The notes under the pieces: generated by a model | The model's input: the letters and a program-made list of their open reading frames with translations, nothing else | Databases searched by the model: none | Told to the model about the DNA's origin: nothing | Shown here: piece by piece, positions 4,741 to 41,970 of the stretch | Position numbering within the stretch: position 1 is the first letter of the stretch | How the letters are laid out: each line of letters starts with the position of its first letter | Origin: Acholoe squamosa | Lineage: Eukaryota; Annelida; Polychaeta; Phyllodocida; Polynoidae | Length of the DNA: 64,000 nucleotides | Reading direction: 5' to 3' | Assembly: GCA_949317995.1 (NCBI GenBank) | Contig: OX439040.1 | Span: forward strand, 25,105,830-25,169,829 | Program-made: the position numbers and the translations under genes

Positions 4741-5122
4741 AACACTTTGTGTGTCACATGTCACGTGTATTGCCATGGCCCATGTTGATCTATAAAGAAT
4801 ATGTTGTCCATGAATGATGTATTTAAATATAGCACGAGAAATAAAAAAGTATAGTAGATGGGAGAGGCCTTGCGTAATTAGTTGGGAGACAGTAACATAT
4901 CAGGTCCATACCATATACGTAATCTATACAAACAATCAGTTAAAAGACCTTACTCAAAATACCCTCCCTTGTCAGGAAGTTAGTGGCCATCAGTTCAAAG
5001 ACCCTCAAATTAGTTAATGAAGGGCCTTAAATCCTGGAGTTGTGAATTCATACTCCACGAATACACTGGAGGGAATAGTTCATCCACCTGTACCTAGGTT
5101 CTGAGGTCCATACCCAGTATAT
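4741..5122. repeat. 380-bp direct repeat, copy 2
   Basis: Partner of 1738-2117, with scattered substitutions, a 4-bp insertion near 4868 and a 2-bp deletion near 4915. Its left flank is unrelated to the microsatellite that flanks copy 1. Confidence 0.9.
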
Positions 5123-18301: not shown

Positions 18302-18775
18302 GTAAGTCCAACAACATATTGGTATCTTATAGCAGGGAATAAATACTATTTTTCTAGCCTTATGTTGTTTTATGACCAGGAACGATCTTGCATCATTACC
18401 CCTTGAGGCACTGCAAAAACTATCCTCCCCTACAGTCAATAAGCTGTGTAAGTCACTGACTCGAAACTCTCAGAGGTGATACATCCCTCCACACGGCTCT
18501 TGCTCAGACTGTCTATAAACATGACCAGGTGTCGCTACCTGGACAGCCTGAGTGAAACTACAAAAACACTGTGGCTGATCACACCAGTCACTCAGTGCAG
18601 TGACATTTGGGTATTTTCCCCTCTTCTCAACCTAAACCCTGATTTATTATCACTTAGCCATCATAAAGATAGATTATACACGCCAATGTGAAGCTGTATT
18701 TCTATTCTACACATACATGAAGTGTTTGTTGTAATTTGTGAAATATCAGTTGTACTTTTGTGTAAAGGAGTATTA

Positions 18776-18991
18776 GGGAGTGGTCATTATTTATCAACAG
18801 GGGAGGGTGGTGGGTTTGAGGGGGGCGTAAAATTTTCACACCCCTCCCGAGGGGGGGCTAAAAAAATTCACCCTCTTTTTAGCAAAAAAAGCCTGCGTGC
18901 TACTATAGATCAAGGGGGGGGGCGTAAAAGATTTTCACGCATCCGCGCGAAAACCCACCACCCCCCCTGTTGATAAATAATGACCACTCCC
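18776..18991. mobile_element. MITE, GGGAGTGG family (Harbinger-like by TSD)
   Basis: Perfect terminal inverted repeats begin GGGAGTGGTCATTATTTATC and extend about 27 bp. The flanks are TTA on the left and TAA on the right. The interior has G runs, CTAAAAAAATTCACCCTC and a CTACTATAGATCAA motif that recur in the 37-kb copies. At 216 bp it cannot encode a transposase. A TTA/TAA target suggests the PIF/Harbinger superfamily by inference. Confidence 0.88.
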
Positions 18992-20807
18992 TAAGGGGAA
19001 GTGGGTGAAAAATAAGTTGGCAGTTTAGAGACATGTTTTACCCAATACTCAAAATAAATTCTAAAAAGTAGGCATACACCCATCCTCTAGGGTCTCCATC
19101 GTTTCCCATTTGGTCTACCCTCTCTACTTTAGAGTTTTCAACCCTTCCCCAATGATCTGCAACCATTTTCTTGAATCTTACATCCCTCTTCTAGTGACTT
19201 GGAGTGACTCCTCCAGGGTGTTTTCATTTCTCCTCCAGTGTGTCCAAAATCCTCCTGTAGGCTGTCTCATCCACACATCAACATCTGGATATATTGTCTA
19301 CCATTTCTAAACCATGTTAGGGCATTAAAATGTTTCACCATGCACTGTTTTCTCTAAGTGAAATTTAATACCCTTGTCTTGATTACAGTAATTAGCTGCC
19401 ATCTTGGATTTTCAGTCATCTTATTGACTGAAGTATCACAGTTAATTAGATTAGTACATTAGCTTTCAGAATATACATACATTCATAAAGTTTTATGCTT
19501 AGATCCCAATCAGGCACAGCCACTTCCCCTACATTCACATATGCCTAGATCTTGACCAGAAGAATGAATCACTTGCTATAGCTCAAAGGGCCTCTGTTTG
19601 TCACCTTAAAACCCCTGACTTTTTAAAAAGAATATTCAATTAAAGAAGAACCAATGATAGTAGAATCACAATTCTTTCAGCACTTTATTACTGTAGATCC
19701 CCTTTATCCATCTAAGTTTTCTGTGTTTTCTAATAATAGCCTGAACACCCTAATATATGTTAAAGATTGTTCATGTTGATAATTCATTGATCATTTCCTA
19801 TTCCTGTATACTTCTTTTTGCAAAAAGGTTTTGTGTATGCGATAAGGTCAATCAGACACCAATTGAACAAGGGGCATAGGGACAGCATACTACACGGTAG
19901 TAATAAGCCTAATTTTATGATATGGACACTTTCTTTCAGGTAGTATTACAGGTTGATGATTTTAATTCTGCATTTGTATATACCTTGAAAAAAAAATACC
20001 CTTTTCTGGGTTTTCGTGTCAAATAGCGGTCTATTCATGAGGCTTAGATCTACCTCCAGGCACAATATAAGTGCACATCTACACTGTAAGAGAAACCTGT
20101 ACTACCAGGTATCCTTGTAAAAGTGAACAGTGAAGCACCTAATTTTAGTGCACTGAAACTGTGTCATTTCTATAATGAAGCCCCAGATGAAAGTTCTGAG
20201 AAATACTGTGGCACAATGAATATGTTTAAAAATAACTGTGAACTCCTTGTTCCAAAGTTGACCCATGTTATTCTAGTGACCTACCGGTAGTACTGCATTT
20301 CCCTTTTCCTATCAAATGGACAAAGACTCAAGGAAAGAGCAAGGCACTATTCTTAACCCCCTAGATTCCCCATGTTCACTGTAATTCACATAATATAATA
20401 CCCGGCATTTGTCTAAAAAACTAGGTGAAGCAGAGGCTACAACCAACAAAAGTAAGAAGCAGCTATGACATTAGTTTGAAGTAACAAGCATTGACCAGAT
20501 CTTAAGTTTGTGCATGTGTAGAACAGCATGTCACATAATACACCTATAATAAAACTTATCTGCACTGCAAATGGACACCACATGATAATTCACAACCACA
20601 ATACACTGGCCAGTATTCAAGCTGCCAGGGATGTACGAATAAAACATATACATACTCAGCATATGCATTTTGCAGTCTGAACAATTAAAAAGTCTCTACT
20701 CTACGAGTGCATGTAACGCATAAATGTGAATTCCACCAAAACCAGTGATTTTGTCGGGCTGATAGATGGCTAATTTCTAAAATTTCCCCTATCGGCTTCC
20801 TGTCAGG
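18992..20807. other. no gene recognised
   Basis: AT-rich, with no element ends or supported exon. Confidence 0.35.
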
Positions 20808-28339: not shown

Positions 28340-28411
28340 ATAATTGAATATTAAACCTTACAATGTGTGGTTTAATATGAATTATTCCTAAGAGTTATGG
28401 CATTAAGCCAT

Positions 28412-28457
28412 AGGGGTAGCTATGGTATATAGCAGGACCTTGCTTGCAGGTTGTCAT
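28412..28457. repeat. DIRS inverted terminal repeat, 3' side
   Basis: AGGGGTAGCTATGGTATATA through TTGTCAT, 46 bp, identical to the inverse complement of 33800-33845. A further 72 bp of outer sequence (28340-28411) has no partner in the other terminal repeat but pairs with the internal complementary region. Confidence 0.9.
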
Positions 28458-28524
28458 GTATTCATCATAGCCGTTTTTGAGTTAGATTATCCCGTAAAAT
28501 AGGGCAGGTAGAGAGTATAGCGAA

Positions 28525-28626
28525 TGGGTGGGCTACCCCTATGGCCTAATACCACAACTCTTAGGAATAATTCATATTAAACTACACATTGTTAGGCTTA
28601 ATATTCAATTATTTTACAGAGTGGCA
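28525..28626. repeat. DIRS internal complementary region
   Basis: Positions 28532-28612 are the inverse complement of 28340-28420 with few mismatches. Positions 28608-28626 are the inverse complement of the right end 33854-33872. In the inverse the two parts are contiguous, so the region copies the junction of the circular DNA intermediate. In DIRS elements this region is thought to template joining of the ends. Confidence 0.85.
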
Positions 28627-29118
28627 GCTCAGGGCAGATATCCTAATTGAAGGACCACAAGTCATAGATTCATATTGTCTGCTCAAGCAGAGTAGGTATA
28701 CATGTTTGTATGGCTTTTGATCGTAAATGCTTTATGTATTATATGTAGGTCTCATGTATAGTCTTTTAATCTATGTTTGTGGGACAAAGTGTTTCCACTG
28801 TTGATGTCTCTCCCCCCCCCCTTCTTCATGAAGAGAGGTGGTCAGGGCCACCTTTGATGGTGGTCCCCCCCCCCCTTTTCTATGTACATGTTAAGTGGCA
28901 TGTATCAGAGAAGGGTGTTAAGATGTCCATGTGTGTCTCTAGCATGAGAGTGCATAAGTATATATGTATTCTGGGATAAATACTTTGATAATTAATATGA
29001 GTGTTTTGAGACTCTGGTTTATAAGACCACCACTCTCTAGGCATGTTTAGTGTGTACTGTCTGGTTGGTGGTTTAAGAGTCTGTTTCACGGTTCATGATG
29101 GCAGTTATAAAGTTAGTC

Positions 29119-29940
29119 TCATGTGAGGTTCCTCTGTATCTTCCAGTAGAGGTCTGTTGTATAGAACCTGGCAAATGTATTGGTTCTCGCCCATCCTGCT
29201 GAGCTGAGTATGTCATTTATTGGTACATTTAGCCTGTCCACTGCACTGGTTGCAGCCTGTCTTGTGCTATATGCCCCAAAGTGTTCCTGTATGCCTGTGT
29301 CCTTTAGGGTTACCTTGATGTATCTTGATAAGGTGACTGCGCTGGCTGTGGAGGGTGTTTTTATGGTGCCAAACACTCTGGGGTGTGCTCCTTTTGTGTC
29401 CTCTCTGTCCAGGTAGGCTTTCAGGTGTGAATTGACACATGTTCATGTGTCGTCATGTTTGTCAAACCTGAGGAGTAGTGGGTTCTTTTTGGGATGGTAG
29501 TCTGAGGTCAGTTCTTAGCAGGGCATAGGCACTCTGTATCCTCTGACCTGTTGCTAGCATGAAGAGTAGTGGGGTTCTCCTTGTTGGCTTATCCAGATCT
29601 AGCTCCTCTATGTCGCCCCACTGTGCCAGTTTGTGTATTACTGGTGCTGGGTCCCAAATGTATTCATAAGGTTCCTTTGGTGGGTTTAGAGCTTTTGCCC
29701 CTTTTACTAGTTTTTGGGTCAGTGCGGTCTACTTTCTATGTAGATGAAGCATGACATTAGCGACCTGGTGGTGGCTGCTGATGAGTGTCCCACCCCACTG
29801 TTTGAGATATCTGTTAGGAAATCTATACATTGGTGTATTGTGGGATGGGTAACGCTAACGTTGTTTTTGCTTGTGTGTTTTAACCACTCCCTTGCTGCTG
29901 TTGCGTAGCTGGCTATGGTAGATTTTGACCATGAAGCCAT
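29119..29940 (-). pseudogene. DIRS tyrosine recombinase (degenerate)
   Basis: The enzyme would integrate the circular cDNA. The N-terminal core-binding part starts near 29940 (WSKSTIASYATAAREWLK, a typical SAM-like helix set). The first catalytic Arg lies in LATGQRIQ near 29540. The C-terminal block (29119-29376) carries the second Arg in AYSTRQAATSAVDR and the nucleophile in TFARFYTTD (Tyr 72 of that block), with Trp in GWARTNTF at the usual His/Trp site. The His usual two residues before STR's Arg block (HSTR) is Tyr here. At least one stop near 29720 and a frameshift near 29440 break the frame, so it is inactive. Confidence 0.88.
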
Positions 29941-29999
29941 GAGGAGTTCCCAGGAAGCCTTGGATATTCCTATGTGATCACACCAGATGATTTCCAGGG

Positions 30000-30345
30000 G
30001 TGCTTGTCATTCATAAGGGCAGGCATAGGAGCCTCATCCTGTTGGCCATGGGGAAGATTTTCTTCTGGTTGCCTGGCCACTGCAGCATTGATGGGTCCAT
30101 CTGTCCTTGAAGGTGGGCAGTCTCCTGAGGTCGGGGTACCAGGGTTATGTCTTCCACTCCGGTATGAGCAGTAGCCCTCTGGGTTTGTCTTCCTTCATTT
30201 TCCTTTGTGTCCTGCCAATGATACCAAAGGGTGGAAATATGAGTACAAACAAGCCTGACCAGTTTATGGAGAATACATCGGCGTAGTGGTGTAGGCATAC
30301 AAAGTGTTTGCATATCGCATTGGAAGGTGAGGCAAATAGGTCAAT
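30000..30345 (-). pseudogene. DIRS post-RNase H region (DLFAS / FPPF segment)
   Basis: Continuing from RNase H, the minus strand reads a DLFASPSNAICKHF stretch, then INWSGLFVLIFPPFGIIGRT and LLLIPEWKT-PWYPDLRRLP, with internal stops. This block is standard between RNase H and recombinase in DIRS polyproteins. The PPF motif has been compared with DAM-type methyltransferases; I treat that only as a family association. Confidence 0.7.
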
Positions 30346-30346
30346 G

Positions 30347-31041
30347 TCAGGTTTTGGGAACTTTTTTTAATATTTTCTGTTGGCTTTCAGGGCTCAGTGT
30401 CCATTCTCCCGCTGTGGAGAAGGCTCTTGAGGCCCTGTCTGCCTCAACATTGTCTTCTGATGGAATGTATGTGGTTTTGAATGTTATGTTCATTTCCCAG
30501 GCCAATCTGAGTACACTTTCACTGGCTTTGTTGCACAGAATGGATTGGTTAGAACCCCCTTTGTTGAGGCAGCTGATGGCTGTGGTGTTGTCTATGAACA
30601 CATGTATGTGTTTCCCCGGGGCTTTTTGAAGTGTAGGAGTGCCCTGTGGGTTGCTAGGATTTCTTTTATGTTTATGTAGAGGGGTTCTATCTCTCCACAC
30701 TATTCTTCCCCATATTCAGAGTGGGTTTCAGGTATGTATGCTCCCTACGCTGTGTCTGAGGAGTGTATAGGGTTATCTGTGGGCACTTTTCTGTGCATGT
30801 CTTTTTTGCCCTGTGGCAGGTACTGTAGGTTTTCTCTCAGGGTTGGTTTTATGAACCCTCTAAGGGGAATGAATTTGTAATAATTACCCTGTGGCGTTAT
30901 TAGAGCCTGGTCTTTTGCAATGATGAGATTTTTGGTCAGTACCTTTGCTCTGTCATTTCCAGGTTCTGTGGCTGCTAGGGCTCCTAGAACCTGCAAGAAT
31001 TTCCTTATGGTACATATTTGTATCTTAAGGATATCCTCCAC
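30347..31041 (-). pseudogene. DIRS RNase H domain and RT connection (degenerate)
   Basis: Two minus-strand segments, 30745-31041 and 30347-30700, in different frames. The first reads the connection helix KIQICTIRKFLQVLGALAA. The second holds the RNase H core: HIHVFIDNTTAISCLNKGG with the catalytic Asp, and IPSEDNVEADRASRAF with the final Asp. The domain would degrade RNA in the RNA:DNA hybrid. A frameshift near 30700-30745 separates the parts. Confidence 0.85.
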
Positions 31042-31062
31042 CTTTTGTGAGATATCGGCCTG

Positions 31063-31890
31063 TTATTTGTCTGGTATCGGCCTGTTTTTGTCTGGTATCA
31101 TAAGTGTTAGTGTGGGTGAGTGCAGTGTGAAGCCCAGGTACTCAATGGTTTGCGTTGGCTCTAGTACTGATTTGTCAAAGTTGTTAGTGAAGCCTGCATT
31201 TTGCAGCACCCTAAGTGTGGCTATTCTGACTCCCATTTTTGTTTTTGCATAAACTAATGTGTCATCTATGTAAAAGACAAGGTTTACCCCGTGCTTTGTT
31301 CTCAGGTGTGCCATAAGTGCCTTCATAATTTTTGTAAAGGTTTTGGGCCCTGGGGAGTAACCATTGGGGAGGCAGGTGAACCTATATCTATTAGCATGAT
31401 GTATTAGTTGTAGGAGGTCCCTGTCCCTAAGTTTCACCGGTAGTGAAAAGTAAGCCTGGGTTATGTCTATGCTGGTTAGGTAGCTGTCTTTTGGGACTGT
31501 ATTCATAACCACTGACAGATGGTCCATTTTGAAATGCTTGTATCACATGTATTCATTTAAGCTAGACAAGTTTAGTATGGGCCTGTATGTTCCGGTGGAT
31601 TTCTCTTTTAGGAACATGTGTGAGACGAAGCCTCTTGGTGATGGGAAGGCAGGTTCTATTATGCCTTGTGATAGCAGTTTCTCAAGTTGTTCACTCATGA
31701 TTCTGTCTTTCACTGGGTCCAAGCATCCAGAGTCAGGTTGTCTCAGCTGGGTGGGCAGAGAGCATAGACTTATAGGTAGGCCCTTTACCGTGTCCAGTAC
31801 CCATCCTTCTGATGTGTATTATAACCATGTTTCTACTTCTCTGCCCAGACCACCTGCCTGGAATGTGGGACTTGTATGTGTCTAGGAGGT
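31063..31890 (-). pseudogene. DIRS reverse transcriptase (degenerate)
   Basis: It reads WVLDTVKGLPI, then EKLLSQGIIEPA, FVSHMFLKEKSTGTYRPILN and LSSLNEYM, then an in-frame TGA at 31543-31545, and resumes with YLTSIDITQAYFSLPV (first catalytic Asp), the fingers/palm block FTCLPNGYSPGPKTFTKIM and the catalytic FYIDDTLVYA (YIDD). Motif wording and order match the DIRS-type RT branch. A second stop (TAA near 31819) lies upstream. The catalytic residues remain but the frame is broken. Confidence 0.92.
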
Positions 31891-31910
31891 GGGTGAACTT
31901 ACTTTTGTTT

Positions 31911-33193
31911 TCAGTGCCTGTTGTTGGTGCTGCCTCCATTGCGCTGGCGTTTGTCTTGCTTGTTTTTGTATTGTTTGCTATGGTTGTATTGGCCTCCGTT
32001 GGTGTGTTGTTTCCTCTTCTCGTCGTACTTCCCTTGGTGGTTGTTGTTTCTGCATGACTGTTGGTTGGTTTGGTGGTACCTGTTGTTCTGTTGCTGTTGG
32101 TGCCCTCGCTGTTGACCCCGGCCCTGGGCTGGGCCCTTGGTGGAGTTTCCCTGATTTGTGGGCTTCCTATTGTCCTTGGTTGTGATAAAGACTTCCTTAA
32201 AGGTGTCATGTAGCTTTCTGCATGTGGTGACTTCCTCCTTTAGGTTGTCACCCAGTAGGTATTGGAAGCCTTGGTTATTGTTGTCCTTGGCCAGGCGTGA
32301 GGTAGGGCCTGCAACAGTGTTCTTGAGGAGTGATCTCATGTTGTTGAATATCCAGGAGGTTTTGGCGATCAGCTTTAGAGAGTCAGATATTTTTACCGCC
32401 TTTTCCTTTGGGGTCTGTGTTTTTGCGTCCAGACTGTTGAGTGCTAATATCAGCAGTCTGGCTGGAAATTGGAGGGCCCATTGCATAGACTTATGGTTAT
32501 GGTGTGGTAGGGTGCTCCTGTGTGTGGCAGTGTGTTCTGGGTCCACTTGGAATCTAGGGTGCAGGTAGTATTCCATGTCTGCCTCTGGTGATATGGAGTG
32601 TGTTGGCCTTCTTGGCCCTTCCTCCTGTAGGTTGCTGTGGTGTTGGGCTGGATAGCCACCTTGTCTGTGGTCGAAGGTGATATCCTTGTAGCGATTGAGT
32701 GACATCCTTGGGTAGTGGTCCTCAAAGGTAGGTCGCCTCACCTGGTAGGCTACCATACCTCTAGGGTCATCTGCAGCTGGGGAGTCAGGTGTGTACCTGG
32801 TGTACCCCGTTCTAGTGTGGTGGGGTTGGTGCTGTATGAGGTGTAGGTGTCTAGGCCTCTTCCATTGTACTCCAGTGTTTTCTGCTGCAACTCCCACCTC
32901 TGTTTTGCTAGCCTTTTGATGGAGTATCTTGGGTTAGGTCCTACTTCCTGTGGCCACCTCACCAGTGGTACACGTTGAAATTCTATCGGGTTCTGCAGTG
33001 GTTGCAGTAGGGGCATCTCCCTCCCATATTTCCAGAGGATTTGTATATGATCCTCCGCCTGACCTGGCCTGCCGGCGTTGGGTTGCTCAGTTTCTGGTTC
33101 TATCCCATCCTCAGATATTGAGCCAAATTGTTGTGTTGGGATGTTACCCTGAGCGTCAGTGCTGTTGTCAGATGTAAAGCTGGATTGGGACAT
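31911..33193 (-). pseudogene. DIRS ORF1 (gag-like), frameshifted
   Basis: The N-terminal part starts at ATG 33193 and reads to 32750. The C-terminal part lies in another frame, 32897-31911, so a frameshift falls in the overlap. The middle has helical segments (ALQFPARLLILALNSLD, KAVKISDSLKLIAKTSWIF) that resemble ORF1 proteins preceding DIRS RTs. The last 80 residues are Gln/Asn/Gly/Arg/Lys-rich, suited to nucleic-acid binding without a zinc knuckle. Function is inferred from position. Confidence 0.75.
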
Positions 33194-33799
33194 ACATTCC
33201 CTGTTTACAGCTATAATGTCCTCCAGGATGCTCTGACTGAACTCTGTAGCTTGGGTATGATCCCCCTGGGGGTACTCTGTCCGTCAGGAATTGTGGAGTC
33301 CGAGCTCGGAGTGGTAGCGCGGTGCTCGATTTTTTAGAAGTGATGCTGAACGTCTTGTGCTCAGCTTTTTATACATCTTCTCTGCCCCATTCATTGTTTT
33401 AATTGGGTTCCTCATCCTCCAATCACATAAGTTTTTGCATATCTGATCTGATCAGGAGGAGGAGGGGTGGGGCCTCAGGGCAGTGTGATGTGCAGTTTTA
33501 TGGCCCTTCGCTCACTCGCTCTGTTTGCTCAGAGCGGTGACTGTTGGTCACACTTGGGTGCACACACAGTGTGTGGAGGCGTTTTATGGCCTCTAGGCAC
33601 TTTGAAGCCGGTCCACTTTGTTGTAGGGTTGTATAGGGCTAATCCCTATAGCCCTCTTCCGACCCTGGAGCCCGGCCCCTACCGGCCTAAGGCCATGTAG
33701 GCTCTGTTGAGGCCGCCATGTATGGCCGGCCTCCTGCAAGCTTTGTGCCATGGAGGGGGAAGGATCCTAGCTCCTACCTCCATGGCAGTCGCTTTAAGA

Positions 33800-33845
33800 A
33801 TGACAACCTGCAAGCAAGGTCCTGCTATATACCATAGCTACCCCT
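33800..33845. repeat. DIRS inverted terminal repeat, 5' side
   Basis: Perfect inverse of 28412-28457. The outer extension 33846-33872 (GGCATAAATGCCACTCTGTG...) is complementary to 28608-28626 only in its last 19 bp. Confidence 0.9.
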
Positions 33846-33872
33846 GGCATAAATGCCACTCTGTGAAATAAT

Positions 33873-37076: not shown

Positions 37077-37558
37077 GGGAGTGGTCATTATTTATCAACA
37101 GGGGGGGCGGTGGGTTTTCGCGCGGATGCGCAGAAATTTTTTACGCCCCCCCCTCGACGGCAGTCAAAATTTTTTACGCCCCCCCCCGCGCCGGAGGCGC
37201 GGAGAGTTTTCGCGCCCCTCTTTGATCTATAGTAGCGTGCGGGCTTTTTTGCTAAAAAGAGGGTGAATTTTTTTAGCCCCCCCTCAAGAGGGGTCAAAAT
37301 TTTTTTAGCCCCCCCCTCGACGGCAGTCAAAATTTTTTACGCCCCCCCCCCCGCCCCGGAGGCGCGGAGAGTTTTCGCGCCCCTCTTTGATCTATAGTAG
37401 CGTGTGGGCTTTTTTGCTAAAAAGAGGGTGAATTTTTTTAGCCCCCCCTCAAGAGGGGTCAAAATTTTTTTAGCCCCCCCCTCAGGACGGGTCTGAAAAT
37501 TTTACGCCCCCCCCTCAAACCCACCCTCCCCCCCTGTTGATAAATAATGACCACTCCC
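37077..37558. mobile_element. MITE, GGGAGTGG family, internally expanded
   Basis: The same terminal inverted repeats as the 18.8-kb copy (GGGAGTGGTCATTATTTATC...), flanked by TTA on both sides (37074-37076 and 37559-37561). It is 482 bp rather than 216 because a 163-bp interior unit, starting TCGACGGCAGTCAAAATTTT, is tandemly duplicated at 37154 and 37317. Confidence 0.9.
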
Positions 37559-38342
37559 TTAGCTTGCTAATTACGTACACAGAAACTTAGATACCTGCAG
37601 ACAAAGTGAACATAGTATTTCCATCCACATCATCGCTCGATCGACACTCGTTCACATATACACCAATTGAGGTAAGGAGTACTTAGAGTACCATCATCAT
37701 GACTGGGGCTATTTGAAGATGACTCTAAATAATTCTTCTGATTCATTTAGGCCACTATGGTATTTCGGCTCTTATTACCATTATGATTTACAAATTTATC
37801 AATGTGTAAATTCAGCAAATGCAAAAGAGCATTGTAAAAACTGGCAAATCTGTCGAGAGTTTTCGCGCCCCTCTTTGATCTATAGTAGCGTGCGGGCTTT
37901 TTTGCTAAAAAGAGGGTGAATTTTTTTAGCCCCCCCTCAAGAGGGGTCAAAATTTTTTTAGCCCCCCCCTCAGGACGGGTCTGAAAATTTTACACCCCCC
38001 CTCAAACCCACCCTCCCCCCCCTGTTGATAAATAATGACCACTCCCTTAGCTTGCTAATTACGTACACAGAAACTTAGATACCTGCAGACAAAGTGAACA
38101 TAGTATTTCCATCCACATCGTCGCTCGATCGACACTCGTTCACATATACACCAATTGAGGTAAGGAGTACTTAGAGTACCATCATCATGACTGGGGCTAT
38201 TTGAAGATGACTCTAAATAATTCTTCTGATTCATTTAGGCCACTATGGTATTTCGGCTCTTATTACCATTATGATTTACAAATTTATCAATGTGTAAATT
38301 CAGCAAATGCAAAAGAGCATTGTAAAAACTGGCAAATCTGTC
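37367..38342. repeat. 488-bp tandem duplication spanning MITE and flank
   Basis: 37367-37854 and 37855-38342 are nearly identical. Each unit holds the right half of the MITE plus about 296 bp of flanking sequence ending CTGGCAAATCTGTC. Differences are a few substitutions (GTGTGGGC/GTGCGGGC, ATCATCG/ATCGTCG) and C-run lengths, so the event is young. The second unit therefore has a MITE right end at 38046 without a left end. Confidence 0.93.
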
Positions 38343-38445
38343 GAATATCATGAAGATGAATGGATTTGAAATAAATAAGAAAAAAAGGTGTCTCAGCATG
38401 GTGCGGTGAAATAATTGTTGATCAGGACGACAAATGCATGTTATG

Positions 38446-41615: not shown

Positions 41616-41970
41616 GATCCTTAAATGGCTAAACATTAGCCCTGGCTGGAGATCCTTAAATGGCTAAACATTAGCCCTGGCTGGAGATCCTTAAATGGCT
41701 AAACATTAGGGGCTGGAGATCCTTAAATGGCTAAACATTAGGGGCTGGAGATCCTTAAATGGGTAAACATTAGGGGCTGGAGATCCTTAAATGGCTAAAC
41801 ATTAGGGGCTGGAGATCCTTAAATGGGTAAACATTAGGGGCTGGAGATCCTTAAATGGGTAAACATTAGGGGCTGGAGATCCTTAAATGGGTAAACATTA
41901 GGGGCTGGAGATCCTTAAATGGGTAAACATTAGGGGCTGGAGATCCTTAAATGGCTAAACATTAGGGGCC
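41616..41970. repeat. minisatellite, about 11 units of 32-35 bp
   Basis: The unit is GATCCTTAAATGGCTAAACA followed by TTAGGGGCTGGA. The first two units are 35 bp (TTAGCCCTGGCTGGA), the rest 32 bp. A C/G variant (ATGGCTAAAC or ATGGGTAAAC) is arranged C C C C G C G G G G C, which shows block expansion. Units abut without spacers, so it is not a CRISPR array. Confidence 0.96.

Follow-up and report, generated by a model that had tools for sequence, protein, structure and literature searches.

A 64-kb stretch of Acholoe squamosa DNA from contig OX439040.1 (hereafter the window) almost certainly contains, at positions 28342..33872, a degenerate and dispersed member of a DIRS1-like retrotransposon family. 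The element spans 5.5 kb on the minus strand, with its 5' end at 33872, and was delimited by repeat anatomy, domain order and the edges of other copies. It is assigned to the DIRS1-like group because inverted terminal repeats (ITRs), a right extension and an internal complementary region (ICR) occur together with reverse transcriptase (RT) and tyrosine recombinase (YR) domains in DIRS order, multiple genomic copies and a shared AAT core. The window element is an ordinary degenerate member of this group. The trait singled out as unusual in an earlier note on this DNA, a marked asymmetry of the ICR, is damage to one copy.

Structure of the element

The left (5') terminus (33800..33872, minus strand) consists of a conserved ITR of 46 bp (33800-33845) and a divergent part (33846-33872). 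The right (3') terminus (28342..28457, minus strand) comprises the conserved ITR (28412-28457, 46 bp), a divergent part at about 28381-28411 and the right extension at about 28342-28380. Both ITR arms are identical at 46/46 positions in inverted orientation, confirming the perfect terminal repeats described earlier. A 39-base ITR pattern, with up to three mismatches allowed, matches the 64-kb window at these two positions alone, and the window holds no additional copy of the element ends. The ICR is formed by two arms on the minus strand. The arm complementary to the right terminus (rICR, 28532..28612) matches at 75/81 positions, and the arm complementary to the left terminus (lICR, 28608..28626), shortened by a deletion, matches at 18/19. 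Taken together, in block 28532-28626 the right end and then the left end are found in reverse complement, joined through ATAAT, with agreement at 88/95 positions. Alignment scores were 132 for the left end against the ICR, 33 for the right end against the ICR and 103 for end against end, with maxima of 27, 25 and 24, respectively, in 200 dinucleotide shuffles each. The fused-end block of the earlier note is real and scores above or far above the shuffles; since it starts at 28532 instead of 28525 and matches at 88/95 positions, the word "equal" was slightly too strong. The right extension (28342-28380) pairs with the ICR only, not with the 5' terminus. As in DIRS1-like elements, the ICR lies near the 3' end, is complementary to both termini and has arms overlapping at the circular junction. 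The internal circle junction is a DIRS feature known since 1985, reportedly named already in the title of Cappello et al. 1985.

All coding regions lie on the minus strand. Two overlapping, broken, Gln/Asn-rich pieces (31914..33283) were assigned as gag-like by position only; the one piece scanned against Pfam gave a single insignificant row (pYEATS, E 0.077). The RT (31066..31818) comprises two pieces, recognized by Pfam RVT_1 and RT structures in the PDB. RVT_1 matched 31063-31542 with E 1.6e-17 and 64.3 bits against a Pfam cut-off of 29.6, and the translation contains FYIDD, the YL/IDD type of RT motif of DIRS1-like elements. An RNase H-like region (30350..30715) was placed by its position and by FIDNTTAISCLNKGG, which we take to be an RNase H motif. 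It is followed by a methyltransferase (MT)-like region (30148..30366), suggested by Pfam Dam. The YR (29122..30006) is split into three pieces by a broken frame and was assigned by Phage_int_SAM_1, Phage_integrase and YSTR...GWARTNTFARFY, presumably the tyrosine recombinase motifs. Its N-terminal domain exceeds the Pfam cut-off (Phage_int_SAM_1, E 3e-5). The resulting order, gag, RT, RNase H, MT, YR, ICR and longer right terminus, agrees with the description of DIRS1-like elements in PMC3266345. Repeat anatomy and domains bear out the earlier identification of a DIRS-type element with an internal region complementary to its fused ends, and the several breaks in the coding frames are likewise seen in the stop-free pieces and translations. 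The RT piece had no relatives among viral contigs, Rfam gave no match, and none of ten flanking frames matched Pfam at E 0.01.

The nearest terminal layout is that of the mollusc elements LgDIRS1, LgDIRS3 and AcaDIRS2, compared here by published description and not by sequence (Table 3, PMC3266345). According to that table, they share with the window element an ATT start and end, an AAT junction, a conserved plus a divergent ITR part, an extension on the right only and a short stretch (AGGGGTAGC) common to both ITRs and both ICR arms. Their ICR arms of 39-86 to 44-88 bp resemble those of the window family (about 39 and 81 bp). The conserved ITR is longer in the window element (46 bp versus 31-36), while the right extension is shorter (about 39 bp versus 48-49). 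The structure of the window family falls within the range tabulated there. Xenopus DIRS-like families (PMC9210276) and Dictyostelium DIRS-1 (PMC5633606) are similar in their ITRs, an ICR complementary to both ends, many degenerate copies and the order gag, RT-RNase H-MT, YR. The ITRs of about 120 bp in Xenopus (PMC9210276) and the conserved ITR part of 304 bp listed for DIRS1-2 (Table 3, PMC3266345) are longer than those of the window element. PAT-like and Ngaro-like elements also combine a tyrosine recombinase with an RT but have split direct repeats; an Ngaro or PAT-like identity was rejected, the terminal repeats in the window being inverted.

Genomic copies, AAT core and target

A 219-base query that ran from the ITR to the ICR gave 540 candidates in the host genome, 40 of which were scored and matched; these counts are lower bounds. 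Stretches were fetched for all 39 other places, corresponding to 38 loci (two places lie within L017). Both termini were present in 12/19 of the first fetched loci, spaced 3.8-7.4 kb apart. With a 159-aa RT piece as query, 152 matches were obtained (150 of 18098 candidates being scored), many of them without internal stop. Several dozen showed at least 80% identity and others near 60%; therefore, the genome contains several DIRS families. Locus L019 (G000:C10:71005000-71013400), with only about 0.7 kb from ICR to 5' terminus, belongs to the same family but is much shortened and non-autonomous. L017 (G000:C1:37084000-37093900) was considered as a tandem element and rejected. Its two matches lie 5551 bp apart because the host DNA around them was duplicated locally and recently: a 3.2-kb stretch holding an ICR fragment recurs downstream at that distance with 99.8% identity.

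The shared core is AAT, located at 28342..28344 on the left and 33870..33872 on the right, and TAAT is preferred at the target. This follows from the letter counts at 31 left edges and 14 right ends and from the starts of circle-junction matches. Of 34 left edges read, L037, L040 and L041 were dropped, their match being the inner palindrome, and 31 including the window copy were kept. Position 28341 is T in 26/31, 28342 A in 26/31, 28343 A in 30/31 and 28344 T in 31/31, with mixed letters at 28340. Against a background of 0.29, the 26/31 has P 3.5e-10 for either letter (28341 T, 28342 A). The right ends read A (14/14), A (14/14) and T (13/14), i.e. AAT in 13 and AAG in one. A 349-nt circle-junction query with the core at query 169-173 (40 of 704 candidates scored) gave 38 right-terminus rows, of which 36/38 begin at query 166-172. 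At least 19 opposite-strand rows, representing ICRs, span the junction (query about 135-249). None of the 40 scored candidates (of 704) matched the query over its whole length. Two loci with early-starting matches, L072 and L073, were rejected as terminus-terminus junctions, the former having only short, loose 5'-end similarity and the latter none. In L072 (G000:C6:20158800-20159500), the flank just outside the right terminus shows a loose similarity, possibly by chance, to the final 20 bases of the element's 5' end.

The junction proposed earlier, ATAAT, is not borne out; its outer two letters, AT, belong to the flank. Of the proposed ends, 33872 is matched by the ends of other copies, while 28340 has to be moved to 28342/28343; with that change, the ends of the genomic copies coincide with those of the window element. 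AAT is also the commonest junction among the elements in Table 3 of PMC3266345.

Lesions, alternatives and mechanism

The asymmetry of the ICR arms, 81 versus 19 bp, is a lesion of the window copy and not a property of the element, because 35/38 other copies keep an arm of about 39 bp and the window copy shows a net deletion of 41 bp. Directly after 28626, a single letter stands where the family sequence has 42. Among the 38 other loci, the short arm measured 34-39 bp in 34 and 22 bp in L017, and no match was obtained in L033, L044 and L046; direct reading of L046 revealed the family sequence, giving the total of 35. A gapped extension of the short arm was equalled by 16/1489 random segments (p 0.24 in an earlier, smaller test) and was not used, because much of the aligned stretch lies beyond the deletion as judged from the other copies. 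It is highly improbable that the short lICR marks a functional variant of an element lineage. With 19 bp it is below every lICR in Table 3 of PMC3266345 (minimum 24 bp), where ICR arms of 24-110 and 36-89 bp are given, and it alone falls outside that range, which includes the family arms of about 39 and 81 bp. Against such a lineage, 35/38 other copies run on with the full sequence, and the three remaining copies (L017, L033 and L044) resemble neither the window copy nor one another at this place. The asymmetry of about 80 versus 19 bp in the earlier note is present in the window copy but does not characterize the element.

The perfect 46-bp ITR was previously taken as a sign of recent mobilization, selection or conversion. 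The window pair, with 0/46 differences, is the sole perfect one among 13 copies measured; the 12 other two-ended copies show 32 mismatches in 543 aligned positions. At their rate, 0/46 differences are expected with P = 0.06. The right terminus of the window copy differs from its own ICR at 6/81 positions (0.078, above most copies, mean 0.052). In view of these two values, the perfect ITR is unremarkable and nothing calls for recent movement or conversion; ITRs held identical by selection or gene conversion, or a copy recently moved in trans, are improbable. That block 28340-28626 is an independent palindromic miniature inverted-repeat transposable element (MITE) lying beside the retrotransposon by chance is scarcely conceivable. 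The block alone is a strong inverted repeat with 81-nt arms, and in 2/19 fetched copies (L017, L028) it is the only part of the element present. However, the YR-side body adjoins it in all seven first loci, the 5' terminus is also present in 12/19 fetched copies, and the distal side of the block matches the far terminus, 5.2 kb away, over 34-39 bp in 34/38 copies. A free-standing MITE was rejected for this genome on account of the linked body and 5' terminus.

For the window element we infer the published DIRS model. A transcript would lack parts of the termini, and the ICR would template their joining, giving a circular cDNA. The tyrosine recombinase would insert the circle by exchange at the 3-bp AAT core into similar sequence, with TAAT preferred, and without target-site duplication. 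The window copy can no longer transpose unaided, because its frames are broken and its lICR is short by a net 41 bp.

Several observations weigh against the assignment and its mechanism. The RNase H-like region is without any Pfam match, the MT-like piece between RNase H and recombinase stays below the Pfam cut-off (Dam, E 0.0064, 16.6 bits, cut-off 28.1), and so does the YR catalytic domain (Phage_integrase, E 0.0098). No empty site was found for the window copy, L009, L014 and L021; for L011, seven paralogues carry the flanking repeat for about 3 bp beyond the junction, which is too short to decide. Since none of these five copies has a clean empty site, the absence of a target-site duplication is read from flanks alone. 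Templating by the ICR at each transposition might leave a right terminus closer to its own ICR than to those of other copies. In 16 copies no such copy-specific match was detected, the difference being marginal (mean divergence 0.052 within versus 0.054 between copies, permutation P 0.13). This comparison neither supports nor refutes templating, because the effect would be masked if the copies were old and star-like.

Inverted repeat in the right extension, further features and significance

The right extension (28342..28380, minus strand) is itself an inverted repeat (ATATTAAACC / GGTTTAATAT), as indicated by DNA folding, shuffles and 31 copies. The DNA fold of 28340-28387 has a z of -5.7, and its 10-bp arms were equalled in 4/1000 shuffles. 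Nine inner pairs (ATATTAAAC / GTTTAATAT) are each kept in 24-30 of 31 family copies. Further DIRS families in the genome were located through RT matches. Inverted arms of other letters at a similar place were found in L077 (AGTCAGACT / AGTCTGACT; 2/1000 shuffles as good) and L080 (AGTTATTTTA / TAAAATAACT; 12/1000). L075, which by sequence belongs to the L080 family, has the repeat in the ICR (5/1000) but not in the terminus (736/1000). The arms measure 9-10 bp with a spacer of 6-13, and the outer arm mostly lies about 7-8 bases from the core-inclusive end. A hairpin is disfavored by L074, with arms of only 6 bp (221/1000 shuffles as good; a different inverted repeat of L074 was left aside), and by a control segment adjoining the L077 extension, which folds too (z -3.98). 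L078 has no inverted arms (967/1000) and may not be a DIRS end; no suitable terminus was located in L076, L079 and L081. Overall, the inverted repeat occurs in three of four or five DIRS families assessed in one genome; L074 and L078 show it weakly or not at all. It is a lead, not a result.

To our knowledge, accounts of the DIRS right extension have so far mentioned only its complementarity to the ICR, and we know of no mapped recognition site of a DIRS recombinase. A literature search, with subscription papers outside its reach, turned up no account of inverted arms within this extension; PMC3266345 and PMC2685390 do not use the words palindrome, hairpin or stem-loop. Tentatively, and with rather low confidence, the right extension of DIRS elements may carry an inverted repeat of conserved geometry inside the junction, its letters varying and its pairing kept. 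It could be a putative recombinase binding site, or a hairpin for recognition of the single-stranded end by the recombinase or RT.

Other repeats occur in the window. Tandem repeats at 37134-38344 are built of 165-bp and 488-bp units with many C runs; the 488-bp units match at 98%, and relatives in inverted orientation lie near 18773-18996. A near-perfect 32-bp tandem array of about 11 copies (97% matches) lies at 41616-41969. The direct repeat pieces 1738-2117 and 4741-5122, about 3.0 kb apart and with 95-100% identity, may have arisen by recent duplication or be the long terminal repeats of a different element.

As a single decayed copy of a known kind, the window element matters little as it stands. 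The comparison of many copies is useful in that it sorts the features of the family (AAT core, TAAT preference, lICR of about 39 bp, rICR of about 81 bp) from the lesions of the window copy. If the inverted repeat held true across DIRS elements, it would provide a testable recognition site for the recombinase.

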